Part shown: one piece after another, positions 1 through 63,807 of the stretch | Layout of the letters: each line of letters starts with the position of its first letter | Numbering within the stretch: position 1 is the stretch's first letter | Assembly (NCBI RefSeq): GCF_026914265.1 | Contig: NC_069136.1 | Coordinates: 34,123,368-34,187,367, forward strand | Origin: Mya arenaria | Lineage: Eukaryota > Mollusca > Bivalvia > Myida > Myidae | Length of the DNA stretch: 64,000 nt | Direction of reading: 5' to 3' | The notes under the pieces: model-generated | What the model was told of the DNA's origin: nothing | The model's input: the letters and a program-made list of their open reading frames with translations, nothing else | Databases searched by the model: none | Translations under genes and position numbers: made by a program

Positions 1-3000
1 TGCATGATCGTTATTGAAGTGCTCTAACGGTGAACATACACGACTCACCCCGTGCATGATCGCTATTGATGTGCTCTAACGGTTTACATACACGACTCAC
101 CCCATGCATGACCGTTATTGAAGTGCTCTAACGGTTTACATACGCGACTCACCCCATGCATGATCGTTATTGAAGTGCTCTAACGGTTTACATACACGAC
201 TCACCCCATGCATGATCGTTTATTGAAGTGCTCTAACGGTTTACATACACGACTCCTCCGTGCATGACAATTATTGAAGTGCTCTAACGGTTTACATACA
301 CGACTCACCCCATGCATGACCGTTATTGAAGTGCTCTAACGGTTTACATACACGACTCAACCCATGCATGATTGTTATTGAAGTGCTCTTATGGTTTACA
401 TACACGACTCACCCCATGCATGATCGTTATTGAAGTGCTCTAACGGTTTACATACTAGAATCACCCCATGCATGATCGTTATTGAAGTGCTCTAACGGTT
501 TACATACACGACTCACCCCTTGCATGATCGTTATTAAAGTGCTTTAACGGTTTACATACACGACTCACTCCATGCATGATCGTTATTGAAGTGCTCTAAC
601 GGTTTACATACAATACTCACTCCATGCATGATCGTTATTGAAGTGCTCTAACGGTTTACATACACGACTCCACCATGCATGATCGTTATTGAAGTGCTCT
701 AACGGTTTACATACACGACTCACTCCATGCATGATCGTTATTGAAGTGCTCTAACGGTTTACATACACGACTCACTCCATGCATGATCTTAATTGAAGTG
801 CTCTAACGGTTTACATACACAACTCACTCCATGCATAATCTTAATTAAAGTGCTCTTATGGTTTACATACACGACTCACTCCATGCATGATCTTAATAGA
901 AGTATTCTTATGGTTTACATTCACAACTCACTCCATGCATGATCTTAATTGAAGTGCTCTTATGGTTTACATACACTACTCACCCCATGCATGATCGTTA
1001 TTGAAGTGCTCTAACGGTTTACATACACGATATACCCCATGCATGATCGTTATTGAAGTGCTCTAATGGTGTACATACACGACTCACTCCATGCATGATC
1101 GTTATTGAAGTGCTCTAACGGTTTACATACACGACTCACTCCATGCATGGTCGCTATTGAAGTGCTCTAACGGTTTACATACAAGACTCCTCCATGCATG
1201 ATCGTTATTGAAGTGCTCTAACGGTTTACATACACGACTCATCACATGCATGATCGTTATTGAAGTGCTCTAACGGTTTACATACACGACTCACTCCATG
1301 CATGATCTTAATTGAAGTGCTCTTATGGTTTACATACACGACTCACTCCATGCATGATCGTTATTGAAGTGCTCTAACGGTTTACATACACGACTCACCC
1401 CATGCATGATCGTTATTAAAGTGCTCTTACGGTTTACATACACGACTCACTTCATGCATGATCGTTATTGAAGTGCTCTAACGGTTTACATACAAGACTC
1501 ACTCCATGCATGATCGTTATTGAAGTGCTCTAACGGTTTACATACACGACTCTTCCATGCATGATCGTTATTGAAGTGCTCTAACGGTTTACATACACGA
1601 CTCACTCCATGCAGGATCGTTATTGAAGTGCTCTAACGGTTTATATACACGACTCACCCCATGCACGATCGTTATTGAAGTGCTCTAACGGTTAACATTC
1701 ACAACTCAACCCATGCATGATCGTTATTAAAGTGCTGTTACAGTTTATATACTAGACTCACTCCATGCATGATAGTTATTGAAGTGCTCTAATGGTTAAC
1801 ATACACGACTCACTCCATGCATGATCTTAATTGAAGTGCTCTTATGGTTTACATAAACGACTCATTCCATGCATGATCTTAATAGAAGTGCTCTAACGTT
1901 TAACATACATGGCTTACCCCATGCATGATCTTAATTGAATTGCTCTAAAAGTTCACATACACGACTCATCCAATGCATGATCGTTATTGAAGTGCTCTAA
2001 CGGTTAACATACACGACTCACTCCATGCATGTTTAAATTAAAGTGCTCTAACGGTTTACATACACGACTCACCCAATGCATGATCTTAATTGAAGTGCTC
2101 TAACGGTTCACTTACACAACTCACCCCATGCATGATCGTTATTGAAGTGCTCTAACGGTGAACATACACGACTCACCCCGTGCATGATCGTTATTGAAGT
2201 GCTCTAACGGTTTACATACACGACTCACCCCATGCATGATCGTTATTGAAGTGCTCTAACGGTTTACATACACGACTCACCCCATGCATGATCGTTATTG
2301 AAGTGCTCTAATGGTAAACATACAAGACTCACTCCATGCATGATCGTTATTGAAGTGCTCTAACGGTTTACATACACGACTCCTCCGTGCATGACCGTTA
2401 TTGAAGTGCTCTAACGGTTTACATACACGACTCACCCAATGCATGATCGTTATTGAAGTGCTCTAACGGTTTACATACACGACTCACCCCATGCATGATC
2501 GTTATTGAAGTGCTCTAACGGTTTACATACACGACTCACTCCATGCATGATCGTTATTGAAGTGCTCTAACGGTTTACATACAATACTCACTCCATGCAG
2601 GATCGTTATTGAAGTGCTCTATCGGTTTACATACACGACTCCTCTATGCATGATCGTTATTGAAGTGCTCTAACGGTTTACATACACGACTCACTCCATG
2701 CAGGATCGTTATTGAAGTGCTCTAACGGTTAACATACACGACTCACCCCATGCATGATCTTAATTGAATTGTTATAACGGTTTAAATACACGTCTCATTC
2801 CATGCATGATCTTAATTTAAGTGCTCTAACGGTTTTCAAACACGACTCACACCATGCATTATCTTAATTTAAGTACTCTTACGGTTTCAATACACGACTC
2901 ACCCCATGCATGATTTTAATTGAACTGCTCTAACGGTTTACATACACGACTCACTCCATGCATGATCTTAATTTAAGTGCTCTAACTGTTTCCATACACG

Positions 3001-3155
3001 ACTCGCCCCATTCATTATCTTAATTGAAGTGCTCTAACGGTTATCATGTAGGACTTTCCCCATGCATGATCTTAATTGAAATGCTCTAACGGCTTACATA
3101 CACGACTCGCCAATTGCATGATTTTAATTGAAGTGCTCTAATGGTTTGCATGCCC
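1..3155. repeat. 52-bp tandem satellite, about 60 copies
   Basis: Direct head-to-tail repeats with a 52-bp step: TGCATGATCGTTATTGAAG recurs at positions 1, 53 and onward. The array continues past the left window edge. Copies are nearly identical in the first 2.7 kb and more diverged, with TTAATT in place of GTTATT, from about 2.75 kb. No gene is seen inside. Confidence 0.97.
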
Positions 3156-3897
3156 GACTCTCCCCATGCATGATGTTAAGTCAAGTGTTCTAACGGTACA
3201 CGCGCCCGAATCCTCTATGCATGAGGCTAAGTCAAGTGTTATAATGGTACACGTGCCCGACTCCTCCATGCGTGATGTTAAGTCAAGCATTATAATGCTA
3301 CACGTGCCCGACTCCACCATGCATGAGGTAAAGTCAAGTATTCTAATGACACACGTGCCCAACTCCTTCATGCATCATTTTAAGTCAAGTCTTCTGATGG
3401 TACACGTGCCCAACTCCTCCATGCATGAGGCTAAGTCAAGTGTTCTAATGGTACAAGGCCCAACTCTTCCATGCATGAGGTTAAGTCAAGTGTTCTTATG
3501 GTACACGGGCACGACTCCTCCATGCATGATGTCAAGTCAAGTGTTATAATGGTACACGTGCCCGACTCCTCCATGCTTGATGTTAAGTCAAGTGTTCGAA
3601 AGGTACACGTGCCCAACTCCTCCGTGCTTGATGTTAAGTCATGTGTTCTAATGGTACATGTGCCCGACTCCTCCATGTATGAGGTTAAGTCAAGTGTTAT
3701 AATGGTACACGTGCCCGACTCCTCCATGCTTGATGTTAAGTCAAGTGTTCGAAAGGTACATGTGCCCGACTCCTCCATGTATGAGGTTAAGTCAAGTGTT
3801 CTAATGGTACACGTGCTCGACTCCTCCATGCATGAGGTTTAGTCAAGTGTTCTAATGGTACACGTGCCCGACTCCTCCATGCATGAGGTTAAGTCAT
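3156..3897. repeat. 51-bp variant of the same satellite
   Basis: The monomer keeps the ATGCATGA and CGACTC landmarks of the 52-bp unit but has a step of 51 bp, with TTAAGTCAAGTGTTCTAATG and ACACGTGCCCGACTCCTCC. Because 51 is 17 codons, long open frames appear on both strands (3138-3842). They are repetitive translations and not genes. The array ends at about 3897, where single-copy sequence homologous to 27.3 kb begins. Confidence 0.93.
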
Positions 3898-4856: not shown

Positions 4857-6411
4857 AATGAACAAAATATGTTCTCCGTTCTTGCAACATGTAAGGTTTT
4901 AAAGAGTCGGCTCCTTGTATCGTGATAATAATTCTTAAGAGTTTATGTCTGACGGTTAAGGGAGTTTTACGGATACATATAGCATTGGATACACGTGTAA
5001 TTTTTCACGAGTTTGTAATCATCACTTTACGTGGACATCCTTAATTGACGCGTGTTTTGATAATTTTGTTATATTATCATTTTAAATATTCAATCACAAA
5101 CTTCCTTCAACATACTAAAAGATGTATTTGGTAGCCCTGTGTCAGCCCGCTCGTTCGACATTTAATTATCGTTTTAGAAGAAACAAACCATTGTGTTCAT
5201 TTCTGGCTTTTAAGACCCTCTTGTGCCATGATTACGAACAGTCTCATGTTTGAGTTTAGACTCAAGTGGCAAAACTGCAAATCGTCATTTTTTTATAATA
5301 ATTTGAATGGTGCATTGCGCGATATTGGTTTATGACTCCTTCGGATGTGTCATCTCTGACGGTCAAATCTGTCCATCGTTTAAAACCTGCGAGAGGACAT
5401 TGAAAGAAATATACTTAAGATTACCACATTTATTGTTTGAACCAGTTTTAGGGATTTTCATAAGTTAATATGCTTTATTGTTTATAATTTGGCAATTATC
5501 CCGTAATTTTTACTTTTTTATATATCAAAAATGTATTGCAAGAAATGGAACTTGATTGGATATTTTAAATATTAAAATATATATTTGATAACCCTATGTT
5601 AGATTGAACAATTAATTGTGTCAACATCAATATGCCACCATCCACAGCTCCACCCGCAAAGAGCACTCCTAACCCAGTTTAGCCGCGATTTAACATAAAA
5701 CTATTTACATTACGATGCATACAATTGAAAATATGTGCATCTTAAACTTATTGTTTAAAATAAATATAATGTACGAAAACCTTCGTAACAAGCCACACAG
5801 TTCGTCTGGGCGAAAGTTCGGAATTTTGCCGGAGATGGCTGAGTTGTTACGATTTTTGAAATCTATTTTTAGAAACTCACGGAAATGACCGACATTGTAA
5901 GCGTATTGTAGGCGTATGGCTACGTGGTATTCTTCCTGATTCTTGCTGGGATTTGTTATTCATGTTTACGATTAAAAAAAATAAGCCAGCAAAGAAAGTA
6001 AGCAAGTAAGCTACAAATGTATAAAGACAGTACGACTTAAAAGATAGCTGAAACACAATTATAATGGAGAGAAAAAAGTAAACTTTCACCAAGCTCGCGA
6101 TGCAGATACTCGGATAACTAATTCATGATGCAATGAGACGAAAGTACAAGTAAGAAAGCAGGATGAACCAGTCAGAACGCAATATGTATCTTTTGCTTCA
6201 ATGTCCTTCCATATAAACGCACATGCATGTTATCAGCTCATGATATCGTTATCTCATTGCGACATCATATGATATTGCTGACATCACGTAAATATAGCTT
6301 TTTGGAAAATCGTTATTTATTTTCCTATTTAACATTTACTCAATCGTGTAAATTGCTTGTTAAAATATAGTCTTTAATCTATTGAGGTTGGATTTAAGCT
6401 GTTTTTCAACC
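4857..6411. other. Upstream region, no gene seen
   Basis: From about 5085 to 5290 the sequence matches 28005-28200, the far end of the HES-like duplication. It ends with a fold-back motif (GAGTTTAGACTC then GCAAA) that also occurs at 28170 and, in altered form, at 30437. The stretch 6190-6370 resembles 61650-61770 and 9870-9960, so it is the shared 5' flank of the small-gene copies and may hold their promoter. A small minus-strand ORF at 5877-6092 has no support. Confidence 0.5.
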
Positions 6412-7572
6412 ATGGAAAAACATTCCAAACGAGGTGACCTTTCTAATCGTACTAGTAAGTATGTTATTGTACTGATGCAGATTTTCTATATATGGATCTG
6501 ATTTAATAACAACGTAAGAAAAACAAGAATACAAAGGAACGCAAGTATTTCAACACAATTAAAAGAATGATATTTGGATACATATATGCTTTAACTTGAT
6601 TCATGAAAACCACGAATATTTTTACAACAACTAGGGATCCCACACACACTGGGCATCACACAAAACTGGGTATTTTACTATTATAACATGAAAACTGATA
6701 TTAATTTACTTATCATTTAATTATATGTGGGAGTATGTTTATTATTTGTCAAAGATAATGTCTATTTCATATCTAAACGTTAGTCAAATGTGATTCATTT
6801 TCTAAAACCTGCCGGGTTTTAACACACATCTGTTTATAGCATGGGCTTTGCAATGGACATTGAAGAGAAATTAAATAATATAAGCTACTTTTATGAACTC
6901 TCACTCGCTCATTGTGAGGATGTTTTGTGGTTGGTATGGCAAATTGAAATACCAAGTTAAAAATCTAAAACCATTTGTAATCGTTCGATCTTCTAAATCC
7001 CTGGTCAAAATTTATATTCTAAAGTTGAGGGCTACGGTCCAAGGGAATGCCCTCCCTTACGTCAAATCCCGGAACCACTCCCGAGTGCTTTGTTTATTTT
7101 CATATTTTTCCGCACCCACTGAAAGTTTTTTTGTAACTGTTTTTTATCATCAAGGTCGTTCCGATAACGAAGGGAAATCTGCGTCAGGGCACGAGAGGGG
7201 CAAGAAAAGAAAAGGTAGGTAACAGTTTAATCCAGAATGTGTTTAAAAAACAGACCCAAAAGTAATTCTTATCAGCTTGTTGATGGCCTACACACGAACT
7301 GACTTAAATAAGTATGTTAACTAAAAACATCCTTTCATCATGCACATTGTGCTGAATTATCCACGTGTTATTGCTATTTGTATTCAGATCTGTAATGATA
7401 AAACAACCGATTTGCATGGAGTTGAGAGGACATCAGACATATCATGTTAGTCAAGGTTATATTTTTCAGGGTCCGACGTATCCGCTGAAGTCCCGAAGAG
7501 ATCTCGGTCGGGTGCTCAGCCTGGTCCTTCTGCAAAGAACGGAAATGAAAAGGCCACACGGTATACATAAAA
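6412..7572 (+). CDS. Small lysine/arginine-rich protein, three exons (copy A, intact)
   Basis: Exons: 6412-6454 (ATG, donor GTAAGT), 7155-7214 (acceptor ATCAAG, donor GTAGGT) and 7470-7572 (acceptor TTTTTCAG, stop TAA). Both introns are phase 1. The product would be about 67 residues: MEKHSKRGDLSNRT, then a charged middle ending GKKRK, then a tail with PKRSRSGAQPGPSA. It has no signal peptide, membrane segment or cysteine pattern. The basic clusters GKKRK and PKRSRS look like nuclear-localisation signals, and the composition suggests disorder. I do not recognise the family. Support comes from at least four other copies (8.7, 10.0, 17.6 and 62.4 kb) that keep exon position and phase-1 junctions. 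An AATAAA lies at 7889-7894. Short length and lack of homology leave room for a transcribed non-coding unit, but conserved phase and open frames in copy 62.4 kb argue for coding. Confidence 0.55.
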
Positions 7573-8685
7573 GCTAAATGTGTTTTGATAGTAGCTTATA
7601 TCGAGAAGTTTCAAATAGTGAAACACAAAGGCATACTTGAAGCAGTGGCGAAGGGCGAAGGCAAATACAGCTGACCGAGGACAAATAACTGGGCCAATAT
7701 GAAATCACCTAACTAAGAAGAATTTCTTAATTTACTATTACCGTTTTTGCTAAAAACATTCTTATAACTTACCTTTAGTTCACATTGAAGCCGTATTTAT
7801 CCCTTATTAATACATGGTGTCTGCTTTTCTAGACTGGACTTTGCTGATTTTGACATGCATCCTTATAGTGACATTGCACATACTTATGAATAAAGCACTG
7901 TACATTGTAAGAAAGCATGTCTTTTCGTCTTAATTTTGTAAATCGTTTGCCAACACGTCAAATGTTTCACCTTCGTCGTCCATTTTGTCGGCGTACATAA
8001 TCATAATAGTCGTAAAATCCACGAACGGGTTAAATACAACTGTAATATCAAACCGTACAAAGTGGTTCAATCGTTCAATAGGTTCAAGTATGCCAAATAG
8101 GTTTATACGAAGCACCAAATTTTCAACAGTCGGAAATGAAAAACAAAATGGCTACCTTTAAAATTAATTTCCAGCTTATTTCTCATATTAGGTGAGTTTC
8201 GACAGCCAATGAAAATGGCTCATTTCTCAAATCCTATATTAAGCGAGATTTGTAGCCAATCAAAGCGGATGAAACTCATATTAGGCGAGTTTTGTCAATA
8301 TTGGCCGAGTTTGGTCGATATAGAGCGAGTTCTGGCATATATTGTCTTCATTTGTCTTGTATTGATACGGCAATTGTCTCTGTATCTCGTCAAATACGTA
8401 ATAGTTGATTAATAATGAAATTTAATACAATTCTCAGGAAAACTACTTACTTTTTCGGCATGTATATAAACCAGACTTAATCATGCTTTTGACACTACTC
8501 ATGAAAGCCAAATAAACTTTATATAGATATATACACATTTAGACAATATATGTTTAAGTTTTATCGGAGCAAACACGTGGGAAAAAGTTATAATTTTATC
8601 ATGAACCCATCTAAACGCGTATACATTTTGTCTGAAAGTTGAAATATAGTTTTTAACCTAGTCGTATTAGGTTATTAACAGTTCA
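7573..8685. other. Spacer after copy A
   Basis: Contains a possible polyadenylation signal (AATAAA, 7889-7894). A 62-codon minus-strand ORF (7930-8118) is not repetitive but has no recognisable domain. From 8180 to 8340 the motif GCGAGTTT/GGCGAGTTT recurs several times at irregular spacing. No gene is supported. Confidence 0.4.
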
Positions 8686-9560
8686 GCAACCACGGAAAAC
8701 AAATTGGCTTAAAGAGATGACCGCTAGTAACGCTATAAGGTTTGTTTTATTTACTGATGCAGATTTTTTTGGATGTCCTTATCAGTTTGAAGGTTTCAGT
8801 TTTAAACAAGGATTATGCCCATTTGGGTACCAGTGTACATAATAAGGTACAAAGGCTTGAACACAAAGGCACATGAGACGAAAACAATTCGGAGACATGT
8901 TTGCATCAAAATGGTTCGTGAAAAACCATAATAATCTTGCAACAAAAAGGATTAAAGAACCATATGCGTTTAGACAATGTACACTTTTAAAAAGTATAAC
9001 ATTAATACCGTGATAAACTTATTATACTAAATTCTGTATGGGATATATGTTTGTTAAAATGGTGTTTTGTGATATAAGTGTTCAAGATGATCGAGCTATA
9101 CTTTATTTTGGCTTCTTTTATAAGGACACCTATTGACTATGGTGCCATTCAATATACAACTTAAGTTTATCTGAATATAAAGCTACATCGTTCATATATT
9201 CAATATATATACGACTTATAACGAATACCGGTCCAGGTTACAATCCATGAAAACGGACCCGAAAATGATTCATTTTAGCCAATTGATGGCTGACAATCGA
9301 ACTGAACTGATTTAATACATATAAATAAAACCCATCAACGAAAACTCATTCCACCGTGCACATTGTGATAAGTGTTTCAAGATTGCATTTCTTTTCGTGT
9401 TAAGTGAAGTAAAATAAAAACTATCTGATGTTCATGGAGTGTTAAATTAAGCAGTTCTTCAGCATGTTTCAGACGACAACAAACATTTCGTGCTAGTCAA
9501 CGTTCACATTTTTTTAGGGACCAAACAATCTGATGTTGCTTGGAGAGAGAAAAGTTAAAA
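8686..9560 (+). pseudogene. Small basic-protein gene, decayed copy B
   Basis: Aligns by eye with copy A. GCAACCACGGAAAACAAAT at 8693 matches the copy A start site but has ACG in place of ATG. The following intron keeps the same landmarks (TACTGATGCAGATTTT, then AAAGGAACA-like and TTCATGAAAACC-like stretches). I cannot find exon 2. The exon 3 equivalent begins after TTTTTTAG at 9519 and reads TKQSDVAWREKS before TAA, much shorter than in copy A. Loss of the start and of exon 2 makes a functional product unlikely. Confidence 0.5.
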
Positions 9561-10004
9561 AGTATACATTAGAGCTGACAGTGTTTTAATAGTAATTAAG
9601 TATGCAAAACTAATTCAAGCATGAAACAAAAGCACATTAATAAAGATATACATATACTGTTATTTTTCCAAAACATCCTCTATCTTTTCAGGAATGACCT
9701 GCTTTACCTAAATCATAAAAACTCTTACATTAATGTATGACAAAATTATATATTAATATATTTATATGCCTTATTTTAGTCAACAACAGTATTTGTCGAC
9801 GTCAGTTCAAATATGATCATAAACCCTTATAACGTACAAAAATCTTATCAACTAATGCTACAGAAAATTCCTTGAGACAATACATTAATTTTGCTTTTTG
9901 GGGAAATCCTTATTTGTATAAAAATGCATGCATCTCTTCAGTCGTGAACATTGGATGGTTGAAATGTAGTGTTTGACTAAGTCATATTGTGTTTTCAGCA
10001 GTGC
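9561..10004. other. Spacer between small-gene copies
   Basis: AT-rich. The part 9860-10000 resembles the 5' flanks of copies A and F. No gene seen. Confidence 0.4.
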
Positions 10005-10451
10005 AGCAACCACTCGAGGCATAAATACTCCACGCAAAGCCCCATTTACGTGTAAGTATTTCATTTTACTGATGCAAACTCTGTTGGACAAAATTGTAGT
10101 CTTAAATTTAAACAGAATCTGGTAAATCAAGAACTCGGCTCATATGGGCATCAATAAGAGTACAGCAACGCATGAACACAAAGGAACAGTTAAAAGAAAG
10201 ATATTCGGACACATCTTGTGAACATACATTGATTAACCATTAAATAATATTAAGGTTATTTCGTGGGAGTGTGATGGATTGGGGGCAAACAATATCAAAT
10301 ATATCTTACTGAATATTTTAATACGTCTGCAATCAAATCTTGGAACCGCTCATACTGATTTGTTTAATATTAGATTATTTTCCGACTGTTTCAGATAAAG
10401 ATGATACCATTAAGGACGGGGGTGGTAGCACCAAGACAGAACACCACAGGG
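10005..10451 (+). pseudogene. Small basic-protein gene, partial copy C (exons 1-2)
   Basis: CAGCAACCACTCGAGG at 10005 corresponds to the exon 1 start of copy A, with ACT where ATG would be, and is followed by donor GTAAGT. An exon 2 equivalent lies at 10395-10451 between acceptor TGTTTCAG and donor GTAGAA. In phase 1 it reads KDDTIKDGGGSTKTEHHR, which resembles the charged exon 2 of copy A. The intron before it holds TCAAATCTTGGAACCGCTC, the same relic transposon piece found upstream of exon 2 in copies A and F. The terminal exon may be the one at 17645, separated by later insertions. An alternative upstream start is possible but not seen. Confidence 0.45.
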
Positions 10452-11284
10452 GTAGAAACAATTAGAACAAAAAATACTATTTATAGATCGTGATTTTGTT
10501 AGTGTACCGAGTTAAGTTGTAAAACAATTAAACCAAAAAAATGTGATCTAGTGGTATCAGCGCTCGTTTATTAAACATAGTACTAAGTGTTTATTGCGTA
10601 CGAAGTTCGTACGAAGTATCTCTGACTGTATTACAGTTTGTTTTTTTTTCTGAAAAAGCACTGTTTTTGTAGATATACGCAATTTCTACGAAAGCTTTTA
10701 GGGTGTCTTAAGATTTTCGTGAATAAATGGCCGCCGCTAAAGCTAAACAATTTTAAGTGGTGATCTTTACTTTGCTTTGGAGTATTTTAACTAAACCAAC
10801 TGCAAATTTTACGACAGACGGCGATTCTGTGGCATCTTCTATCGGTGAGTAAATAAACATTTCGTTACAATGCTGTTTTCACTGAATACTAAGGGGTCGC
10901 AACCTCTCCCGATCTGTCAAATGTTTTAACAAAAAACAAAATGCTATTATTTCGATGCATTTCATGAGATACTTGTGATTCCAATGCTGGAATCTGAGTC
11001 TGAAATACTATCAAAACATCTTACTCAGGTTATGTGCTTTTTTACATTTTTTAAGTGAAACAAACGAGCTGTGGTAATTTCCATCTTTCTTAAAGATACC
11101 AATTTACAAAGGTTTATTTGGGGTTTTATCTTTCCTTAAGATATCTGCATAACCCGTATATTCGTCCTAGAAAGTGGCTTTTACCTTCTACAGCAAGCAT
11201 GCTCCTTGCATGAAACCCCGCTTTTGGCTCCCGCTGTCCCGTTGTCATGGCTCTCTTGGACTTATCAACAAGGTAGGTACCAGT
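10452..11284. other. Spacer with SINE-like piece and a possible micro-exon
   Basis: At 10545-10600 a tRNA-like A-box stretch (GATCTAGTGGTATCAGCGC) matches one in intron 2 of copy F at 63270, consistent with a SINE present before duplication. At 10818-10844 a 27-nt open piece sits between ACAG and GTGAGT and fits phase 1-1 (GDSVASSI); it is too short to call an exon with confidence. Confidence 0.35.
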
Positions 11285-11350
11285 AACGGACGATACCATA
11301 CTCGTCCGTTTTATTATTATACCCCCACAAACGAAGTTTGAGGGGGTATA
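11285..11350. repeat. Two adjacent hairpins heading a mobile repeat
   Basis: AACGGACGA pairs with TCGTCCGTT around an 8-nt loop (11285-11310). Directly after it, TATACCCCC...CAAAC pairs with GTTTG...GGGGGTATA (11318-11350). They precede a GGTC microsatellite and the 145-bp array, a layout like the pearl/Helentron-type non-autonomous elements known in bivalves. The assignment is inference. Confidence 0.6.
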
Positions 11351-11365
11351 TAGGAGTGAGCTTGT

Positions 11366-11450
11366 CGGTCAGTCGGTCGGTCGGTCGGTCGGTCGGTCGG
11401 TCGGTCGGTCGGTCGGTCTGTCTGTCTGTCGGTCGGTCTGTCGGTTTTCA
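11366..11450. repeat. (GGTC)n microsatellite, partly GTCT
   Basis: Uninterrupted GGTC repeats pass into GTCTGTCT and back. The ORF running through them into the 145-bp array is a repeat translation. Confidence 0.95.
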
Positions 11451-11454
11451 TGGT

Positions 11455-12755
11455 TTCCGGACGATAACTCATGAAAGGCTAGACAGATTTGAAATTTTTT
11501 TGGTACACAAGTGTAACATCAGAAGATACAGGTCAAGTTCGATATTGGGGCTGGTGGGGCCAAGGTCAAGGTCATTGTTACTAAAAATAGAAAAACGGTT
11601 TCCGGACGATAACTCATGAAAGGCTTGACAGATTTGAACAATTTTTGGTACACAGGTGTAACATCAGAAGATACAGATCAAGTTCGATATTGGGGCTGGT
11701 GGGGCCAAGGTCAAGGTCACTGTTACTAAAAATAGAAAAACGGTTTCCGGACGATAACTCATGAAAGGCTAGACAGATTTGAACAATTTTTGGTACACAA
11801 GTGAAACATCAGAAGATACAGGTCAAGTTCGATATTGGGGCTGGTGGGGCCAAGGTCAAGGTCATTGTTACTAAAAATAGAAAAACGGTTTCCGGACGAT
11901 AACTCATGAAAGGCTTGACAGATTTGAACAATTTTTGGTACACAGGTGTAACATCAGAAGATACAGGTCAAGTTCGATATTGGGGCTGGTGGGGCCAAGG
12001 TCAAGGTCACTGTTACTAAAAATAGAAAAACGGTTTCCAGACGATAACTCATGAAAGGCTAGACAGATTTGAACAATTTTTGGTACATAGGTGTAACATC
12101 AGAAGATACAGGTCAAGTTCGATATTTGGGCTGGTGGGGCCAATGTCAAGGTCATTGTTACTAAAAATAGAAAAACGGGTCCGGACGATAACTCATGAAA
12201 GGCTAGACAGATTTGAACAATTTTTGGTACACAGGTGTAACATCAGAAGATACAGTTTGGTACACAGGTGTAACATCAGAAGATATAGGTCATGTTTGAT
12301 ATTGGGTCTGGTGGGCCGAAGGTCAAGGTCACTGTTACTAAAAATAGAAAAACGGTTTCCAGACGATAACTCATGAAAGGCTTGACAGATTTGAACAATT
12401 TTTGGTACACAGGTGTAACATCAGAAGATACAGGTCAAGTTCGATATTGGGGCTGGTGGGGCCAAGGTAAAGGTCACTGTTACTAAAAATAGAAAAACGG
12501 TTTCCGGACGATAAATCATGAAAGGCTTGACAGATTTGAATAATTTTTGGTACACAGGTGTAACATCAGAAGATACAGGTCAAGTTCGATATTGGGGCTG
12601 GTGTGGCCAAGGTCAAGGTCACTGTTACTAAATATAGAAAAACGGTTTCCGGACGATAACTCATGAAAGGCTAGACAGATTTGAACAATTTTTGGTACAC
12701 AGGTGTAACATCAGAAGATACAGGTCAAGTTCGATATTGGGGCTGGTTATGATGG
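11455..12755. repeat. 145-bp tandem array, about nine copies
   Basis: Landmarks such as CGGTTTCCGGACGATAACTC and TTTTTGGTACACAGGTGTAA recur with a 145-bp step (for example 11595 and 11740). One copy near 12190-12290 carries an internal partial duplication. Copies are very similar, suggesting recent amplification. With the upstream hairpins and microsatellite this forms one composite repeat. Confidence 0.93.
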
Positions 12756-13000
12756 GGGTGACCAGATTAAGATTGTGGTTGGAATGACTAGGATTCTTTA
12801 AAGGAGAACTGGCCGGACTTATCTGAGGCTAAGACAATACCTCGCAGCTACAGACGTTTATACCAATTTTACAAAAAAAGTGGCTCTGTGAAAAAATATG
12901 TGAATGTTAAAATGATTTCGTTTTAAATGTTTACTTAAAATTTTATTTCATCATTGTTTCCTTTTTGCTCTTGAATAATAACTTATGATTTTGGTTTCAG

Positions 13001-13086
13001 TGACCCGTGGCCATCTTACAAATAATTCAGAACCTAGATTGAAAGCTGCAGAAAGAGACATGCCATTCTCTACAAAATTCATCTAA
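13001..13086 (+). other. Possible orphan terminal exon
   Basis: After TTGGTTTCAG a phase-1 reading stays open for 27 codons (TRGHLTNNSEPRLKAAER and onward) to TAA at 13084-13086. Phase 1 and a tail-like charged sequence fit the small-gene family. Without a matching upstream exon, chance is a real alternative. Confidence 0.2.
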
Positions 13087-13235
13087 ACCTTGTTTGATCG
13101 TATTACTTGAGGCAACCACAGAATTTTCAAGGACAGAATTCACAAAACTGTGTATGCCAACATCATATATTTAAGGACTATGCTTGAGTTAAACCGCCTT
13201 CAGCAGAAAATGTTTCAGTTTAATCTTGCAGCGAT

Positions 13236-13430
13236 CTAAGCAATCTTTAACATCATTTCAACTTTGTAAATAGTTTTAACTTGATTTTTAGAATTGACAT
13301 TTATTTCGGCTCTATACAGGAAGAAAAGACCATCTTTATACTTGCTTGATATATCATACGAAGAAGGGATAAATATTTCAAAACCAACCAGCACTGGTAT
13401 GTCATTCAAGAACTCAGCTACTCGCTCCAT
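13236..13430 (-). CDS. Short hypothetical ORF, 64 codons
   Basis: Starts MERVAEFLNDIPVLVGFEIF and ends with MLKIA before TAG. Composition is protein-like (aromatic, hydrophobic and charged residues mixed) and it is not in a tandem repeat. I see no signal peptide, zinc motif or known domain, and no splice partners. It may be a remnant exon of a decayed gene or chance. Confidence 0.18.
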   Translation of the reverse strand: MERVAEFLNDIPVLVGFEIFIPSSYDISSKYKDGLFFLYRAEINVNSKNQVKTIYKVEMMLKIA

Positions 13431-13439
13431 TGTTTAGTA

Positions 13440-15007
13440 GAAACGTCTGTGTCAATGTTATTTTTTGTGCATGATGAGGCGTTTCCTTAAGCTCACCTGA
13501 AGCCTCTAAATTTAGTGTACATGATGACCATTTGTAGCATGTTTTTCTTTACTTTTTATAAATTATTTTCGATTATTTCTTCCCTGGAACCATTTGACTA
13601 ATTATATCTCCTTCATAAATTGAAAAATTTGTTTTTTGTCAAGTTGTATGTCCGTCTGTCTGTCACAAATTGTGGCCGCAGCGTATTTCTTGAACCGCTC
13701 GAATTATTTGAAATCACTCGCAAAAAATGTTCAAGAAATTGAGAGGATGTGCAGAGCGCATGTTACAACCAGCTTGGTTCTATGTCAAAGTTAACAGGTC
13801 AATAGTTGTATAACTAAATTTCGGGTCCGCTCTATATCTCTTGAACATCTTGAAGGATTTGATATTTCTTGCCACATGGTAACCATTTTGAGAAAATGTG
13901 CAGAGGGGAGACAACAGTTTTTGATTACAAAAACAACCGAAATAAAGTAGTACTTAACACTCAAATATTTAATGAGAATCTGCACTTTTAAAGGTGTCTT
14001 TATAGTTTTAAGAGATAATATATAGTTCCAACATTTCATCTGGTCCACTACTGTTTTATGTTTGCAACATGTTTTTTTTTAAATCTTTATTTAAATTGAG
14101 TAATATATCATGACTTTTATAAACAAACACCAAACAGCAACTGGCAGATATACTTTTGAGCAGAATTTTGTGAATTCAAGCCTTAGGTCATTCCATTTTT
14201 CAATGTTTTTTTCGGAAAATGTTTTTTTTGTCACATTCAAAGATAAATGTTAACAATAAAGCTCAAACTTGAATATTATCATCTTTTTGTGCATATTTCA
14301 AAATGAAAGGATTTTTTTCTTTGATGTTTGACACTAAAACGTGAACGAGACCTTTAAGCTTATGTTCTATGACAATTTTGTGTTTGTCTATTGGTATTTG
14401 TTTATTTAAAATATTTGTCAAACTAACTTAATATGAATAAAATGTTTGAAATATTTCATATGTTTTTATTTTTAAACAATTTGCATAGGTCATGAGTGCA
14501 TTTTTTAATACAATACTTATGTGAAAAACTACAGAAACAAGCTCAGTAGTCAAAAGTTTTAACATGAACCCTGTTTTATTGCACACGCTAAAGACATAGA
14601 ACACAAAAACAAAAAAACAAAAAACAAACAAGAGCCTTGCAATATCTCAATTTTAAAATGCCTGTATACATAGTTGAACAATGCAGTATATGCATTGTTA
14701 AATACAACTTGGAGAAAAAGGTTGCATTTATCAGCATTTATACATACTAGAATGTTGTGTGTAATATAAAAAAAACTATATTACATGCATCTCATTATTT
14801 CAAAACCATTTCGTATTATTAATAAAAGAAAAACGGATTCTTAACAATTTTATATAACTAATTTTTAACCAAAATTCATTTTATGTTAATTTAAAGTTAT
14901 TCTTTAATTATCTAATTGTTTTTCGGATATCTATAAATTAAAATAACAAACAATTCTAATAATTTATTTCATATGACAAAAAATGAATTTATTTTTACAT
15001 CATGATC
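13440..15007. other. AT-rich spacer with old dispersed repeat
   Basis: Around 13640-13900 the phrases GTCCGTCTGTCTGTCACAAA, TTGAACCGCTCGAA and CTCTTGAACATCTTGAAGGA look like an eroded dispersed repeat related in style to the 145-bp composite. The rest is AT-rich with no gene seen. Confidence 0.4.
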
Positions 15008-15130
15008 AGTCATAGAGCTAGAGTGAGTGTAGTCTAGTATAAAAGGCGTTTGTCTGACTTCCTCCTGCTAAGGAGGGAATGGGTTTGATCCCTAAGTGGG
15101 AAAATGAGTTTACAGGTCAGTTGATGTATC
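15008..15130 (+). repeat. tRNA-derived SINE-like sequence
   Basis: GTGTAGTCTAGTATAAAAGG resembles a Pol III A box and GGGTTTGATCCC a B box, spaced about as in a tRNA. No clean cloverleaf forms, so it is read as a SINE head and not a tRNA gene. Confidence 0.45.
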
Positions 15131-17278
15131 TTGCTCGCGGGCAAAGAAGTACTATGTATAATGGGCACCTGTAAAGTAAAAGACGCATATATGTATTTAC
15201 TTTTCTCCTTCAAAGAGAAATTTATTTGTAAACAAAAAAGAAAAAGTCGTCCATTTTGTTCAATTGCTATTTCTAATAATATTTGTAAATTTTATATAAG
15301 CTTACTCACTTTATAATTTAAATACTGTGTCAAACTTCAAATTAAAATTAAATGCCTGCACCGATCAGTGATATTTTGTATTAATTAGGATTAACATCTA
15401 TTGGTAAAAATAGATAGATGGCGAGAAGCAATAGCCATTACTTATATCCTATTTTCATACATTATTTAATGGCAATTTAATTTGTTATTTCGAACACGTT
15501 TTATTATGGTATGCATAGTATATGCAATAGTTCAAATAATGATTTGCTGAGCTTTATAGTGATACCAAAAGCTTTTCAAGATTCGCAAGATTGCATCTCA
15601 GATGAATGTTAGAGTTTATCTTTCGAAAGATTGCCTGAAATGAAAAGAACTTATAATTAATAATATCACAAGTATACACATAGAACATACCTCATTACAT
15701 TACTTGTATATGTATATGTCATTGATCAATAGTAAACCAAGGCTACTGTAGAGGCAATTAACATTAGCCGTACTGATTTAGTAATGAAAAGAGGCATTTG
15801 CCTAGTATATAGAATGGTTAATTACAACATATTTTAGTGTGTTTAAATATTTCTGAGAAAAAATCGAATAATATGTACTTTCTAAAACATTTTCTTTTAC
15901 CCAGATTTGCTCAATTTATCAACGAACGTAATAATACCGACAAGTATGCGTATTATTTTAACCTGTTAACGCAATAATATACACAGTAAATGTCTTATTA
16001 AGAAAATTGTTGACAATTATCATGATGTGTCATAACATTGAAGTGCATTGAAACACAGAAAAGGCTGTTAAAATGTATTTTTCGAATAGCAAAGAAGATC
16101 AACCCACAAGACATTGATTAATTAAGGGTACTCACATCTACGGTTTGCTTACATTTCGTCGGTTTCCATCTCCTTTTAAAGATTGATTACGTACGTGTTC
16201 GATCGAAATACTGCACAAACGCGTTAAATTAAAGGTCGCAGAAATCTTCGAACGTAAGTTCGTATGACGTGATCGTAGATTTAGGGTCTAGTTCGTACAA
16301 TTTTTAATAAAACTGGCCCATGCTGTTCGCCTTTCACCAAATCATGTGAACTTATACCTCACTTAATATCGAGCTAAAACAATAAATGTATAAACTCAAG
16401 AACATTAATAAAATGAAAACTTCAGGGACGACCCCAGAAGTTAAAAAGAACAAGCATATTGTGTTACAAGATTCAAGGTTTTATTGTTATTTGTAGTTAG
16501 CGGTATCGTGAAACAATGTGAGTTTTAGGGACTATAAATTAAAGCAGGTTTTAAAATAAATCATGTTTTCGATGACGCCACTCATATCACAGGGTGAGGA
16601 ATCAGGTGTCTTAAAGTGTTCTCACATGGTCACAAAGGGTCACAACCGATGTAAACAAACAATTTAGTAACGTTGATTTCTGAATAACATTTTGACAGAA
16701 ATGATTTGAAAATATATGTCTAAGCCTATAATAGATTATGCTATTTTGTGCTTCTACGCGTGTGAAATATTTTAGATTTGCTTGTATTTTAATGATTTAA
16801 AATGGCAATGTTCACATTTAAGTATAAAACTTTCCTTTTGAATAAACATTTAAACACTTGAAAATACTTGAAATCCGAGTGAATATATTCTAAAATATCA
16901 AAACGTTATATTCATTAGTATATTTCTCAATTATTGTAATATGTGTTGGGTGTTTGTTTATAAGTGCTTGATATTCACCGAAATTATACATGTGTTTAAC
17001 TTGGTTTATTATTCAATAATGCTTCATATGATTTATTTTTATCCTTTTTGCTATTTGAATGATAGTATACATACGTGGATTGTGTACCTTTGTCTAACAT
17101 GATGAATTATTTATTCATGCTTTAGATGACTTGTTGTTTATCGTTTTTAATGATATTTGAATAATAGTATCTGTACAAGTGTGAATTGTGTAATGCTGTA
17201 TGTCATTATGTTTTGTTTAAGAATGCTATATTGAAAATATTATGTTTTATAGTTGACACTGTATTTAAGCCATAATGT
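15131..17278. other. AT-rich spacer, nothing recognised
   Basis: No ORF, tandem repeat or RNA gene that I can support. Confidence 0.5.
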
Positions 17279-17404
17279 GTTACATTCTTCTTCGTCTTCT
17301 TCTTCTTCTTCTTCTTCTTCTTCTTCTTCTTCTTCTTCTTCTTCTTCTTCTTCTTCTTCCTATTATTATGATTATTATTTTTATTATTATTATTATTATT
17401 ATTA

Positions 17405-17462
<58 letters not shown>

Positions 17463-17480
17463 TATTATTATTATTATTAT
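17279..17480. repeat. (TTC)n followed by (ATT)n microsatellite
   Basis: About 25 TTC units run straight into about 40 ATT units with few interruptions. The poly-Ser/Tyr and poly-Leu/Ile ORFs here are artefacts of the repeat. Confidence 0.97.
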
Positions 17481-17644
17481 TTTATTTTTTTATTTATTTA
17501 AATGATGTAAGCCTCAAACTTAACTTGACGTCACTTAATTCTTTGTTTACATCGGTTGTGATTCGTGGTGAACAATGTCAGAACCCCTTTAAATCACTTA
17601 CCTCCTCAACCTTTATCCAGTAAGTCAAAGTTCCCATTTTTCAG

Positions 17645-17754
17645 GGACCCACACATCTGATGCGCGTCCGGTTAAACCCAGGTCTGTTGTCGATGATGAC
17701 ATACTGGTTGGGGAAGACCTTCCCGAACCAAATTTACGCAGGGATCGACACTAA
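17645..17754 (+). pseudogene. Terminal exon of the small basic-protein family (copy D)
   Basis: After TTTTTCAG, a phase-1 reading gives GTHTSDARPVKPRSVVDDD and continues to LPEPNLRRDRH, then TAA at 17752-17754. The start (G-x-x-SD, then a PKRSRS-like PVKPRS) matches exon 3 of copy A, but the acidic end differs. No exon 1 or 2 is seen close upstream. It could be the last exon of copy C (10.0 kb) across a 7-kb intron swollen by insertions, or an orphan. Confidence 0.42.
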
Positions 17755-19259: not shown

Positions 19260-20893
19260 TCAGGAATTGAGCTATATCAGACATTTCGTTTCTTACTTAG
19301 CTCATACATGTTGACATATTTGATATTTTATATGTTTTGTGTTGTTGACGATGAACAGGTCGGAAATAAACTGGCCTTTTGCACCACAGTTTTGCAATAA
19401 ACATGCGAATATGTTTATAACAGTTTAAGTCAAATATATCATACACTGTTGCTCTACTTACACGCGGTTGCAAAATTCTAAATAGACTAAAATCCTCGTC
19501 TGACAGAGTTCGTGCTGACCATAATGAGGTATCTTTCAATGAAACAATAGTTTTAACTGTATGTTTCCATTGACGTCTAGAGAGAATTCGTTCTGGATTA
19601 ACTAAAGCATTGTTGATAAAGCTTTGAAGTCCATATGTACATAGGATTTTACATATATCAGGAATAAAACCTAAAGAAACATTTCTATCTGTTACAAACT
19701 GAAAGTATCGTCGTAGAAAAATATTCTTAGTGGTGCATTTAGAGTCTAGACAAAGTATCAAATGTAAGAATAGCAATTTCTTAATGATCACCGATGAATA
19801 CAATTTGTGAAGCCCAAGCATTGATTCACACATATCAGATCTCGTGCGAAAATGAAATCCCTGTATTTTCTTAACCATAAAATGCTGTAAGCGATTAACT
19901 GAAGTTATATCGCTTTGTACAATATTATTCCATAATTCACTACAATAGAGAACAATTGGCATTATGATTTTAACATAGAGATTAACCGAAACTAATGGAT
20001 TAAGACCATGTGGGTGTACACCTTGAGCAGTCATTGCAAAAAATGCATTTTTAGCTTTTTGGCATCTCTCTTCAATTTGTGCTTTGCACTTCATGTTAGA
20101 AACTTGTTTCACACCCAGGTGGTTCGCACTATTAGTTTGAGGGAGTATCTGGTCACCATACATTATTGCAACTTTGGGTGGATCACGTTTTCTTGTAAAT
20201 ACGATTATTTCTGACTTGTTTACATTCATGTCTATTCGCCATGACTTACAGTAGCGATATACGATGTCCATCAATTTCTGAAGATTCAAGGGAGATAACG
20301 CCAACAGGGCAATATCATCGGCGTATGCAGGATTGCCGGACTTGGTTGAAAGAACACAACAGCCTTTGTTACTGATCTCAAGATCTTTCAGAAAGTTGTC
20401 GACGTAGATTAAATAGTAAAATGTAGATAAAACACCTCCTTGGCGAACTGATTTTTGTATGTTGATGCTATCTGATGTATCGCCATTAAGCTTAACAACG
20501 CATTTAAGATTGCTATAAGATACTCAGACTGCAGACTAGTGGCAAGTGGTCTGATGTTATAATGTTTGCACTGTCTTCAATTATAAAGTTAGTACACAAA
20601 GTAACACATGATGATTCAAGCAATATGTGGTCGATTACTTTCCCCGTTGGCACAAACGTACCGTCATATCTATTTCCACGTACATGTTGTAATGATACCA
20701 AGTTATTGTTCATTATTAATTCTGTTAGCAATCGTGACTTGGTGTTAGCACTCTTGAACTCATGGTTTCCAATTAGCTGTCCATTGAAATCCCCTGCTAG
20801 TAAAACGTCCCCAACCTGGGTGTAATAGGCTATTAATGACTGGATTTCACTTAAAACCGACTTATAATATTCTATGTTGTTACACGATGGCAT
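19260..20893 (-). mobile_element. Non-LTR retrotransposon (LINE) remnant, endonuclease joined to partial reverse transcriptase
   Basis: From the upstream side, 20893-20513 encodes the C-terminal part of an APE-type endonuclease: VLLAGDFNGQL, DHILL and SDHLPLV. It stops at 20513. Reverse transcriptase follows at once in another frame: RQGGVLST (palm), then YADDIALLAL (catalytic YADD), then a long C-terminal region down to 19297. The fingers part of the polymerase, normally well over a hundred residues between the endonuclease and RQGG, is missing, so the element carries an internal deletion as well as a 5' truncation. The C-terminal region (MLGLHKLYSS, FLHLILCLD) is of the kind seen in many mollusc LINEs. 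The clade is not assigned. It cannot mobilise itself. Confidence 0.85.
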
Positions 20894-22192: not shown

Positions 22193-23977
22193 TTATTGTA
22201 CTATTTTAAACAGTTTCAGTGTTTTCAGTTGTCTCGCATCACCTGCACTGTTGGTCACGGCCATTCTCGAGCCATCCCTGGAGACGGCAACGGCGTACGG
22301 ATACATCATGTCGACGTCACATGACGCCAATATGTCCCCGTCCGGCGATATCTGGATGACAGAGTTCGTGTTTGCACAGCAGACAAACACGGAGTCATCG
22401 GGACCAACACTAGCGCCTCTTGGTACCTGTATCCGCTCATCAATCAACTCGCTTCTCTTACCGGTCAAGGTATTGTACTTGTAAACTATGTGAGCTTGAC
22501 TATCAGTAAGAACAAGACTATCCTGGGATGGTAGGTATGTACATTTACTTTCATCAAGCTTATATGTTTTTCTGTTAAACTTCACGTTGTCAAAGTCGCT
22601 CTTCTTGCCGTCCACGTCAATCATCCTGGCAGGCCGTTGGTCGTCAATAGTGCTCACTACGAACGTGCGGTCGTTCACGGGATAGATGGAGAAGCAGTTG
22701 GTGGACGTGTTCAGCGTCTTCATCAGCGTGATCGTGTTATTACTGTTCACAGTAAGCAGACAGATTTTTCGGTTATTGAAGGTTACTGCAATATTGTTAT
22801 AAGAGTAGGCTGATACGTCATAAGGATTTGTCTTAAGTTTATAAAATGTGTCGAACCTTTTCAAAGTTTCACTCAATATAAAACATTTACAGTTAAAGCT
22901 ATCCACGGCGACGATCCTCCCGTCCAGCAAAAAATCCAGCCCAGTAACAAATGGCTCCTTCTTGTCGTCCCCGGTCTTCACGAGCTCCATGATTTCCAAC
23001 AGTTCCAGACTCACCTGCCTTTGTTGCTTTGTATGTTTCTCAGTTGAACTTTTTGCTGTTTTGATTACATCGTCTCCATTTAATTGTTTTTTTGGCTCTC
23101 CTGTTTTATCTAATGAGAATAATGCGACATCAGTTGTTTTTATTTTTAAAATGTTTTCGTTGATTTGTAGTCCAACTTTGACGGTGTAATCATTCTTTAA
23201 TAAAGTGTTCAGTGTTTGTGCTGCCTTGTCTTGCATCCTTTTAAGAATGTGGTTTAGAATGAATATTTCCGTTTCTGTGCCAATCTCGCGAACGCTATCA
23301 GACATTGCCAAATGCGTGTTAAGTTCTTTCTTCAGGTTTTCAGCCGCAGTTCTCCTAGTATTTAGACGTCCGTTTTCCTGTGAGTTATGGTTCGTCATTT
23401 CGCTGACAATTCGCGCCTTGGCTTTCTCAATTTTTGTTAATAAGTCTTCCTTGTAAGTATCAATTTCTTTTACGATTTCTTCAATTCGCGAAACGTTGTT
23501 CAATTGATCCTCCTTGCATTTCTTTATAACATCTGAGGCAGTAACAATGGATGCACGTATCTTATCCCTTTCATCATCTTTCAAATTCTTAGCGACCTTT
23601 GCTATTTCGTGGATATTATCGCATCTACGATGACGAGAAAAGGCACACATTTCACAACACAAATCTTCGTGGTCTTCACAGTGAAACATAAACACTCGTT
23701 TATGTTCGCAACACTGATCCAGTCCCTTCATATCGACATCGGGCTTGACACAGTCTTCATGTGCAGCCACGATATGATGTTCATCTACGTTAGTCATGTG
23801 CACCTTGTGCCCAACACAGCAGTCCTCGCATAGATATACCTTGCATGTATTACAGAACAACGAAGCCACCTCTGACCTGTCCCGACGACGACAAGGTTCA
23901 CACTTTCTCTGGACTCTTCCACCGACGGCGTCACTAGCACATTCTGGAAGTGTATCGTCAATTCCCACCGAAGCCAT
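22193..23977 (-). CDS. Double B-box TRIM-like protein, no RING, 594 residues
   Basis: A single uninterrupted ORF starting ATGGCTTCGGTG at 23977. B-box 1 spans about residues 26-68 (C26, C29, C42, C45, C50, C53, then H57 and H67/H68). B-box 2 spans about 89-123 (C90-H92, C100-H103, C108-C111, H116, H123). A helical, probably coiled-coil region follows to about 270. The C-terminal third (about 330-594) has repeated blade-like phrases such as VTGLDFLLDGRIVAVDSF and ISPDGDILASCDVD, typical of NHL/six-bladed propellers. There is no N-terminal RING, so ubiquitin-ligase activity is not expected alone; such proteins probably act as adaptors. Genes like this are greatly expanded in bivalves and often linked with innate immunity, which is family-level inference. 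The stop codon overlaps an AATAAA motif (CAATAAAAG). A paralogue with one stop lies at 40.7 kb. Confidence 0.9.
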   Translation of the reverse strand: MASVGIDDTLPECASDAVGGRVQRKCEPCRRRDRSEVASLFCNTCKVYLCEDCCVGHKVHMTNVDEHHIVAAHEDCVKPDVDMKGLDQCCEHKRVFMFHCEDHEDLCCEMCAFSRHRRCDNIHEIAKVAKNLKDDERDKIRASIVTASDVIKKCKEDQLNNVSRIEEIVKEIDTYKEDLLTKIEKAKARIVSEMTNHNSQENGRLNTRRTAAENLKKELNTHLAMSDSVREIGTETEIFILNHILKRMQDKAAQTLNTLLKNDYTVKVGLQINENILKIKTTDVALFSLDKTGEPKKQLNGDDVIKTAKSSTEKHTKQQRQVSLELLEIMELVKTGDDKKEPFVTGLDFLLDGRIVAVDSFNCKCFILSETLKRFDTFYKLKTNPYDVSAYSYNNIAVTFNNRKICLLTVNSNNTITLMKTLNTSTNCFSIYPVNDRTFVVSTIDDQRPARMIDVDGKKSDFDNVKFNRKTYKLDESKCTYLPSQDSLVLTDSQAHIVYKYNTLTGKRSELIDERIQVPRGASVGPDDSVFVCCANTNSVIQISPDGDILASCDVDMMYPYAVAVSRDGSRMAVTNSAGDARQLKTLKLFKIVQ

Positions 23978-45425: not shown

Positions 45426-45439
45426 AAACAACCCCAAAA

Positions 45440-56440: not shown

Positions 56441-56849
56441 ATAGATAACGTTACCGTGACTATCGTGTAGTTCTGCCTTGAACCGAAATTATTTCACTTC
56501 TGGTAAAGGTGCCTCAATAATTGAAATGAAAATAATAATGCGACGAAACCAACATGTCCTTGAAATAACCCGCATACGCGCTTTTTGCTATAATCAATCG
56601 TTATCTAATTAACCTCAATCATTGCACGTAGCTGACATATTTCAAGCCTTTAACACTTTGTACCGAGATAAAACACTTGATATGATTGTATAGTTTTATT
56701 AAAGCAGATTGCAATTTTCGTTTTCGATTGAAGCATACGAGTCATAACCTTTCTTATTTATACGCATAAATTAACTTCCTCTTTATAAGTGACAATATCA
56801 ACATTTAATGATTAGTTCTCTTATTAGTTGTTTTCTTTTTAATAATCAC
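56441..56849. other. Spacer, nothing recognised
   Basis: AT-rich. No supported feature. Confidence 0.4.
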
Positions 56850-62430: not shown

Positions 62431-63807
62431 ATGGGAAAAGCACAGGGTAACCGTGCCAGTAAGTGTTTTATTTTACTAATGCAACTTTTGTTATTTTAAT
62501 TGAAAGCTATTCCTATATAGGCATTTGTTTTATTTACAACTACTAAACGCATGCACGCAAAGGAACATAAATATTATTTTAACTAGGTTTAAACAATGAT
62601 ATTCGAATACATATTTGTATGAACTTGATTCAAGAAAAACAGCAGCAACAATAAGTTCACTTTTAAGTATTTTAATATGAATTCCGAGATTTACTTACTT
62701 ATATTTAAATTTATTTTGAATATGTCTATTATTTGTCAACGAGTTTAAATACTACTTTTCTTCACAGTAAAGCGGTTTTTGTATTTTCTGGAAACTGAAA
62801 TTCGATGGGATCCAGTTGTTTTCTACATATTTCTATTTATAGCACGGGCTTTGAAACTGGGTATTGATGAATCGTTTAATAATGTGAAGTTATTTTTATG
62901 AATTCACACATGGGATTTTTTTTTGTGGTTGTATTGGCAAACAAATTACCAATTAAAATCCCGTTCAAACAATTATTACGTAAGATATAAACACTTAAAC
63001 AAGTTTAGAGCTACGGCCCCAGGGTTCCAGTGTTTGACACACTCCGACTTCTTTTATTTTCATATTTCATGGTCCGCTTCGACTGATTTGTATGTTCTTT
63101 TAACTTTATCTTTTCTATTTCTTTTGATCTAGGTCGTTCCGTTCGCAAACGAAAGTCAGGATGCAAGGGAAAAGAGAAAAAAGGTAAGAACTGTTAAAAC
63201 CAAAAGTACTTTTTATAAATTGTTTCAGTGTTAGTGAATCAAATCGTTTAACAATCAAACTCAAAAAGGACGGTCTAGTGGTATTAGTATCTGCCTCTCA
63301 TTCAAATGGTTCGAGCCACATCAGGGACGTTCCTTTGGCCTATAAATATGGGGCATGTTTCTATCAAGAAAACGGACCGGAGGTTGATTGATATCAAATG
63401 ATAGATTGGTCACACACAAGCTGAGCGTCATACGATAACAGATTCAAAACAGAGATGAAGAAAAAGAGAAGAAAAACCAGCAGGCATATTATGTTAAATA
63501 GTCCAAGTTAAATTGCTATTTGAGCTTAACGATATAATGAAAAAAACATAAGATTTCCATGGACTATCAAATAAATAGTCAATTTCAGAATAATCGTTGT
63601 TTCAGCGGAAACCACACAGGTCAATATTCATATTTTTCAGGGACATTCAAATCCGATGCTTTCCAGAAAAAAATCAGGTTGGGAGTAAGCACTAAAGATG
63701 AATTTAGATGGAAAGCGAAACGGTACATAAACGCTTTAATTTATATCTATATATTAAGACTGTGTTTTAATAGTAACTTAGTATATGAAAGCCTGATGGA
63801 TACATGA
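62431..63807 (+). CDS. Small lysine/arginine-rich protein, three exons (copy F)
   Basis: Exons: 62431-62458 (ATGGGAAAAGCACAGGG, donor GTAAGT), 63133-63183 (acceptor GATCTAG, donor GTAAGA) and 63641-63807 (acceptor TTTTTCAG, stop TGA). Both introns are phase 1, as in copy A. The product is about 82 residues: MGKAQGNRA, then SRSVRKRKSGCKGKEKK, then TFKSDAFQKKIRLG and a long tail ending YESLMDT. Compared with copy A the third exon has lost bases near CGGTACATAAACG, so it misses the homologous stop and reads into former 3' UTR (INALIYIYILRL). The tail is therefore novel, and the copy may be either a young variant or starting to decay. Function unknown. Confidence 0.45.
63268..63320 (+). repeat. 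tRNA-derived SINE head in intron 2 of copy F
   Basis: GTCTAGTGGTATTAGTATCTGC (A-box region) and GGTTCGAGCCAC (B-box-like) are spaced as in a tRNA. The same piece, truncated, is at 10550 beside copy C. Confidence 0.5.

Follow-up and report, generated by a model that had tools for sequence, protein, structure and literature searches.

Gene A and its exons

The window analysed here, a stretch of 64,000 nucleotides from the bivalve Mya arenaria (C15:34,123,368–34,187,367), holds two predicted members of a family of small basic genes, gene A and a second gene at 62 kb (62k), among tandem arrays and open reading frames (ORFs) of other kinds (Table 1). Gene A probably has six exons, twice the three-exon length, with exon 3 splicing on in phase 2; the chain has intron phases 1, 1, 2, 1 and 1, and its joined frame is open for 136 amino acids, ending at 17,754. 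A sequence-only reading had proposed a three-exon gene of 67 residues. Its start codon (ATG 6412), its splice sites (donors following 6454 and 7214, acceptors preceding 7155 and 7470) and phase 1 at both introns all hold, but the frame runs on through exons 4–6 to 17,754, the end coordinate of that reading itself. The related pieces that it had placed in order at 8.7, 10.0, 17.6, 61.8 and 62.4 kb are recovered in the same order by nhmmer; those at 10.0 and 17.6 kb, taken at the time for further copies, are most likely exons 4–6 of gene A, and 8.7–9.6 kb is better read as a broken module.

Table 1. Predicted exons, family relics and other features of the window; numbering continues past the window end for the second gene
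Feature	Position	Strand	Remarks
Gene A, exon 1	6412..6454	+	ATG start, donor GTAAGT, ends in phase 1
Gene A, intron-1 block	6503..6620	+	common to 10 aligned module starts (selected for matching it)
Gene A, exon 2	7155..7214	+	phase 1 to 1, AG and GT sites, carries RGKKRKG
Gene A, exon 3	7470..7560	+	phase 1 to 2, carries PKRSRSG; end set at donor CG/GTATAC, TAA at 7568–7570 beyond
Gene A, degenerate middle module	8634..9596	+	profile matches, alignment
Gene A, exon 4	10002..10051	+	phase 2 to 1
Gene A, exon 5	10395..10451	+	phase 1 to 1
Gene A, exon 6 (terminal)	17645..17754	+	ends LPEPNLRRDRH, then stop
First-exon relic	61743–61853	+	donor lost; followed by intron-1 block 61890–62019
62k, exon 1	62431..62458	+
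62k, exon 2	63133..63183	+
62k, exon 3	63641..63722	+	donor CG/GTACAT; next in-frame stop 82 nt beyond donor
62k, fused exons 4+5	64203–64273		joined stretch, past window end
62k, terminal exon	64699–64856		joined stretch, past window end
B-box zinc-finger ORF	22193–23992	-	weak propeller-type matches
B-box zinc-finger ORF	40716–42536	-	split by in-frame stop 42006–42008; weak propeller-type matches
25-base tandem arrays	45438–47282, 56847–60669		open in several frames, long artefact ORFs
Tandem array, unit 52	1–3896
Tandem array, unit 145	11452–12747
Tandem array, unit 46	29476–30437
Tandem array, unit 110	36737–37665
Reverse-transcriptase ORF	19297–20523	-	RVT_1 above cut-off
Reverse-transcriptase ORF	49268–50554	-	RVT_1 above cut-off
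Reverse-transcriptase ORF	44284–44913	+	zf-RVT just below cut-off
GDSL-lipase-like ORF	53226–53825	-

The aligned pieces include two kinds of first exon, one bearing the ATG and one with an acceptor (CAG/TTCAGCAACC) entered in phase 2, and two kinds of third exon, one with a phase-2 GTATAC-like donor and a longer one with a stop after an LP..NLR motif. Joined, these kinds give a single chain with the phases listed above. Exon 6 of gene A is homologous to the terminal exons of two paralogues, 95k and L019, which end NLRKPKR, and 95k has, as read from its sequence, an in-frame stop directly upstream of the start codon position.

Between exons 3 and 4 lies a degenerate middle module. Its exon-4-like piece has an in-frame TAA and a damaged donor, and its two open readings (8662–8726 and 8671–8726) both depend on other splice sites; its exon-3-like piece (9488–9596) carries an in-frame stop and has no open reading, and exon 5 was not found within the module.

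A probable two-module build of the array genes

To the window we joined the 192 kb downstream (L023–L042), giving a stretch of 256,633 bases in which the window numbering continues, and ran exon profiles with flanks, built from at most eight copies each, over this joined stretch and seven further loci. First-exon-class matches lie at 8.6 kb (E = 9.6e-6), 9.9 kb (E = 5.5e-5), 61.7 kb (E = 9.8e-4, donor lost) and 62.4 kb (E = 1.1e-8), and a third-exon-class match at 17.6 kb (E = 6.4e-7); the exon-1 and exon-3 profiles also pick up exon-4- and exon-6-like pieces. Clusters of exon-1-, exon-2- and exon-3-like pieces, in order, occur at about 6–18, 62–65, 70–81, 91–99, 143–158 and 250–253 kb. Five of the eight gene loci counted in the 256 kb have complete open frames (A, 136 amino acids; 95k, 138; 62k, 143k and 250k, 129 each), a count that leaves aside fragments at 61.7, 143.1, 149, 152–154 and 250.2 kb. 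The other three are broken: 69–81k by a TGA in exon 2 (by reading), with several extra modules, 91k by deletion of exon 3, and 157k by the absence of exons 4–5 and the exon-6 acceptor (by reading). For 62k, the junctions 62458/63133 and 63183/63641 of the sequence-only reading were right, but this gene too runs on: it is open over five exons and 129 amino acids and extends 856 bases past the window end, to 64,856. Outside the joined stretch, L019 is open over exons 2–6, L005 over exons 1–5 and the available part of exon 6 (the last two judged by eye), and L020 has lost its exon-6 acceptor; L002, L007 and L008 were seen only in part.

Open frames of 129–138 amino acids in five or six predicted exons, at five loci and with matching splice positions and phases, are the evidence for a gene of two modules. 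Exons 4 and 5 are fused in 62k, 143k (145645–145724) and 250k (252776–252846) and are two exons in A, 95k and L019, a difference that by alignment represents loss or gain of an intron inside the family.

Trees were built from 150-base stretches around 26 first-exon-class and 25 third-exon-class pieces, with exon 6 of L005 entered one base early. In the best tree of the first-exon class no exon-4-class piece falls among the first exons (support 77%, rising to 96% for the exon-4 class when k72 is left out), and in that of the third-exon class all nine terminal exons keep together (77%). Such grouping would make the duplication of the module older than that of the gene; what was amplified seems to be a gene of two modules, which would have split before the genes did. 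The dead exon-4 piece from gene A's middle module falls beside exon 4 of 95k, L005 and L007; the exon 4 that gene A would use joins k78 (78%) and k73 (50%), which suggests that gene A probably once had three modules or more.

Predicted proteins and search for relatives

The six predicted proteins have isoelectric points of 9.4–11.6, and all fall on the disordered side of the charge–hydropathy plot. Lysine and arginine make up 18–29% (24–37 of 129–138 residues), alongside 8–22 acidic residues, and the highest 11-residue mean hydropathy is 0.13–0.57 in the five complete proteins (L019 lacks the N-terminus). Some members carry KKRK, PKRSR or C-terminal RKPKR clusters, which we take to resemble nuclear signals. 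The product is most likely a nuclear disordered protein, as predicted from composition and motifs.

No relative was found in Pfam (with the 67-residue protein, two full proteins and five aligned members) or in a sequence search of the PDB (with one full protein and the alignment). A pattern search of viral contigs with the alignment gave 87 pattern matches, none of them confirmed, and a literature search found no paper whose title or opening lines of abstract describe such a family. Several candidate identities were considered and rejected. A secreted antimicrobial peptide would be expected to differ at the N-terminus, where hydropathy reveals no hydrophobic signal stretch (no signal-peptide program was applied). 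An Arg/Lys-dominated composition is typical of protamine-like proteins and is not that of these proteins; the HMGN core motif, RRSARLSA, is absent by reading from the five aligned proteins. Pfam FRG2 (PF15315) scores 8.4–9.6 bits against a cut-off of 27, and DUF4553 (PF15090) 8.7 bits against 27, the aligned-member search returning it alone, for one of five proteins at E = 0.98. The earlier view of a locally amplified, Pfam-unrecognised family of small, basic, disordered-style proteins with conserved phases is supported, and the family is most likely a fast-evolving orphan family whose proteins are probably nuclear.

Conservation of the frame and competing readings

Exon lengths among A, 95k, 62k, 143k and L019 differ by multiples of three; splice sites were taken at homologous motifs, save in exon 3 of 143k, where the donor 12 nt upstream keeps the phase. 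Between A and 95k, introns 1–2 hold 26 insertions or deletions, 22 of them not multiples of three, against none in exons 1–3. Six sequences, which were picked as open, contain no internal stop in the frame used, and the other two forward frames hold 1–4 and 8–14 stops. When the substitutions are scattered at random, the chance that no stop arises is P = 0.04 for A v 95k, 0.02 for 95k v L019, 0.015 for A v L019 and 0.014 for 62k v 143k. Residues invariant across the five aligned proteins fall in both halves, including the LP..NLR of the terminal exon.

At the protein level, alignment guided by protein gives a synonymous excess (P < 0.05) in four of six pairs for exons 4–6 and two of six for exons 1–3. 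Because such alignment favours synonymous codons, the comparison was repeated with DNA-guided alignment, in which, for the whole sequence, three of ten pairs remain below 0.05, uncorrected (95k v 62k, P = 0.0006; 95k v 143k, 0.011; A v 62k, 0.039). The even spread over codon positions that the sequence-only reading had set against a coding role is nearly what A v 95k gives (36/40/44 changes) and less what 62k v 143k does (26/31/40). Our reading is that the frame has been kept while the residues would be only loosely constrained.

We lean towards a tandem array of coding genes, each made of two copies of a three-exon module, with the exons spliced as drawn and a basic, disordered, nuclear product, and think it somewhat likelier to be right than wrong. 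A number of observations weigh against it. Tree support is modest, and the likeness of module 1 to module 2 at the protein level does not rise above shuffled sequences in any of the six proteins (P = 0.13–0.47). Gene A would need a 7.2 kb intron and the skipping of a dead module. For closer pairs the odds of meeting no stop are not low (0.43 for 62k v 250k, 0.27–0.30 with L007), and all such odds are flattered because the loci were picked as open. Once alignment is guided by DNA, seven of ten pairs show no synonymous excess for the whole sequence, eight of ten none for exons 4–6 and nine of ten none for exons 1–3; for exons 4–6 of A v 62k, P moves from 0.0002 (protein-guided) to 0.28 (DNA-guided, with 20 codons left and exons 4–5 not included for that pair). 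Omega is 0.28–0.95, with dS > 1 in many distant pairs. The signal of protein-level selection is weak, and weaker under DNA-guided alignment. To these are added the exon-3 donor, which in the stop-bearing copies is mostly GTATAC, with three of six matches to GTAAGT (A, 95k, L019), and the stop kept directly behind it in 10 of 19 exon-3 copies.

The strongest competitor, which we regard as unlikely though by no means negligible, is that these are decaying relics, or a family of non-coding multi-exon transcripts, whose open frames are leftovers. It would account for the faint protein-level selection, for the many broken modules and for an intron-1 block that diverges less between A and 62k than the exons do. 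It sits poorly with exons 1–3 of A and 95k, free of the insertions and deletions that crowd their introns, with length changes by threes and with the scarcity of stops.

A second competitor would end each gene in exon 3, either as three-exon genes of about 67 residues closing with RYT and a stop, each module its own gene, or as an isoform of about 66 residues that retains intron 3. The stop that would serve it follows the donor position by 7 nt in A, L002, 95k, 157k, L005, L007, L008, L019, L020 and k74, the copies in which the donor is weak, and 157k, lacking exons 4–5, could make only the short product. Elsewhere the pattern differs. In seven copies (k62, k71, k73, k78, k143, k153 and k250) the first stop falls at another place and a phase-2 donor has at least four of six GTAAGT matches; the remaining two (A_M2 and k149) are dead. 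Among the seven, the stop overlaps the donor in k73 and k143, there is none until 82 nt past the donor in 62k and 250k, and the donor of 143k lies 12 nt upstream of the homologous position, in the same phase. Second modules moreover begin with an acceptor instead of a start codon, their exons make groups of their own in the best trees, and terminal exons retain an open frame and their motif. Poly(A) signals fail to separate the short and long models: all six exon-3 ends have an AATAAA or ATTAAA no more than 400 nt away, as do six of seven exon-6 ends; for the seventh, just 116 nt of sequence were available. We judge a gene that ends in exon 3 less probable than decay.

Genomic distribution and neighbourhood

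Across the genome searched (1,216,080,610 bases in 18 contigs), DNA of gene A gives at least 66 matches and the 67-residue protein at least 14, both counts being lower bounds since only the best candidates are scored. All protein matches fall inside a 1.06 Mb array on C15 (33.886–34.945 Mb), as do the DNA matches save those to a 3' repeat and one on C7, which covers only part of intron 1, within the intron-1 block. Four other DNA matches are full-length, at 78–99% identity, and shorter ones reach 66–85%. An origin as part of a transposable element or as a virus-derived array would suit the many copies and repeat-rich surroundings, but this concentration in one array, and the lack of a Pfam relative or a confirmed one among viral contigs, leave it very improbable.

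The region 4901–9200 has a 99.44% identical copy at C15:33,923,655–33,927,955, about 205 kb upstream, the identity running over the whole compared locus; judged by this, the region was either duplicated very recently or is represented twice because the assembly kept both haplotypes. The repeat starts directly behind exon 3 (from 7651–7700 on), where 50 bases match exactly at at least 22 places on other contigs, many of them with an inverted copy alongside. The intron-1 block is 72% identical between A and 62k over 133 bases, against about 54% at aligned coding sites; it folds no better than shuffled sequence (z = 0.83) and is possibly a regulatory element.

Intron 5 of gene A contains the 145-base-unit array. 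The two B-box ORFs of the window are 82% alike in DNA, and five more B-box-like ORF sets, by reading, lie on the minus strand of the next 192 kb, in between members of the gene family. Scanning the window for Rfam families and tRNAs gave no match.

Discussion

In the model that we favour for this array, the duplicated two-module gene, module 1 (exons 1–3) would supply the start codon and module 2 (exons 4–6) the stop, the exons being joined in phases 1, 1, 2, 1 and 1. The short, basic and disordered product would rely on its KKRK- and PKR-type clusters for entry into the nucleus, where it would bind nucleic acid or nuclear partners. Unequal exchange, between modules as between genes, would make the array grow and decay, leaving genes with deleted or extra modules. 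The gene model that had looked complete is probably incomplete and is corrected here. What emerges is a compact example of a gene growing by duplication of a module while its reading phase is preserved, the five open and three broken genes counted lying within 256 kb. If expressed, these would be young genes for disordered proteins, a set in which neighbours could be compared for their number of modules, fused exons and shifted donors.

A bolder proposal, which we put forward as speculative and on balance doubtful, is an undescribed nuclear disordered family of the clam lineage, built by intragenic module duplication, with quick gain and loss of modules and exon fusion, that shares its array with B-box genes and perhaps serves nuclear defence or chromatin.

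In kind this would be an orphan tandem family, a common one; what sets it apart is its build of two modules, together with a fused exon and a shifted donor. Such families of animals likewise form local arrays and encode small domainless proteins that change fast and leave many broken copies, whereas each gene here appears to be built from a three-exon module that was itself duplicated and whose phases are fixed. Bivalve protamine-like sperm nuclear basic proteins are also small and basic, but a lysine and arginine content of only 18–29% with 8–22 acidic residues lies far from their composition. Another parallel in form is with the HMGN nucleosome-binding proteins, which are alike in size, basic character, disorder and a count of about six exons; the family described here differs in having no core motif in five proteins and no sequence relation to them that we found.

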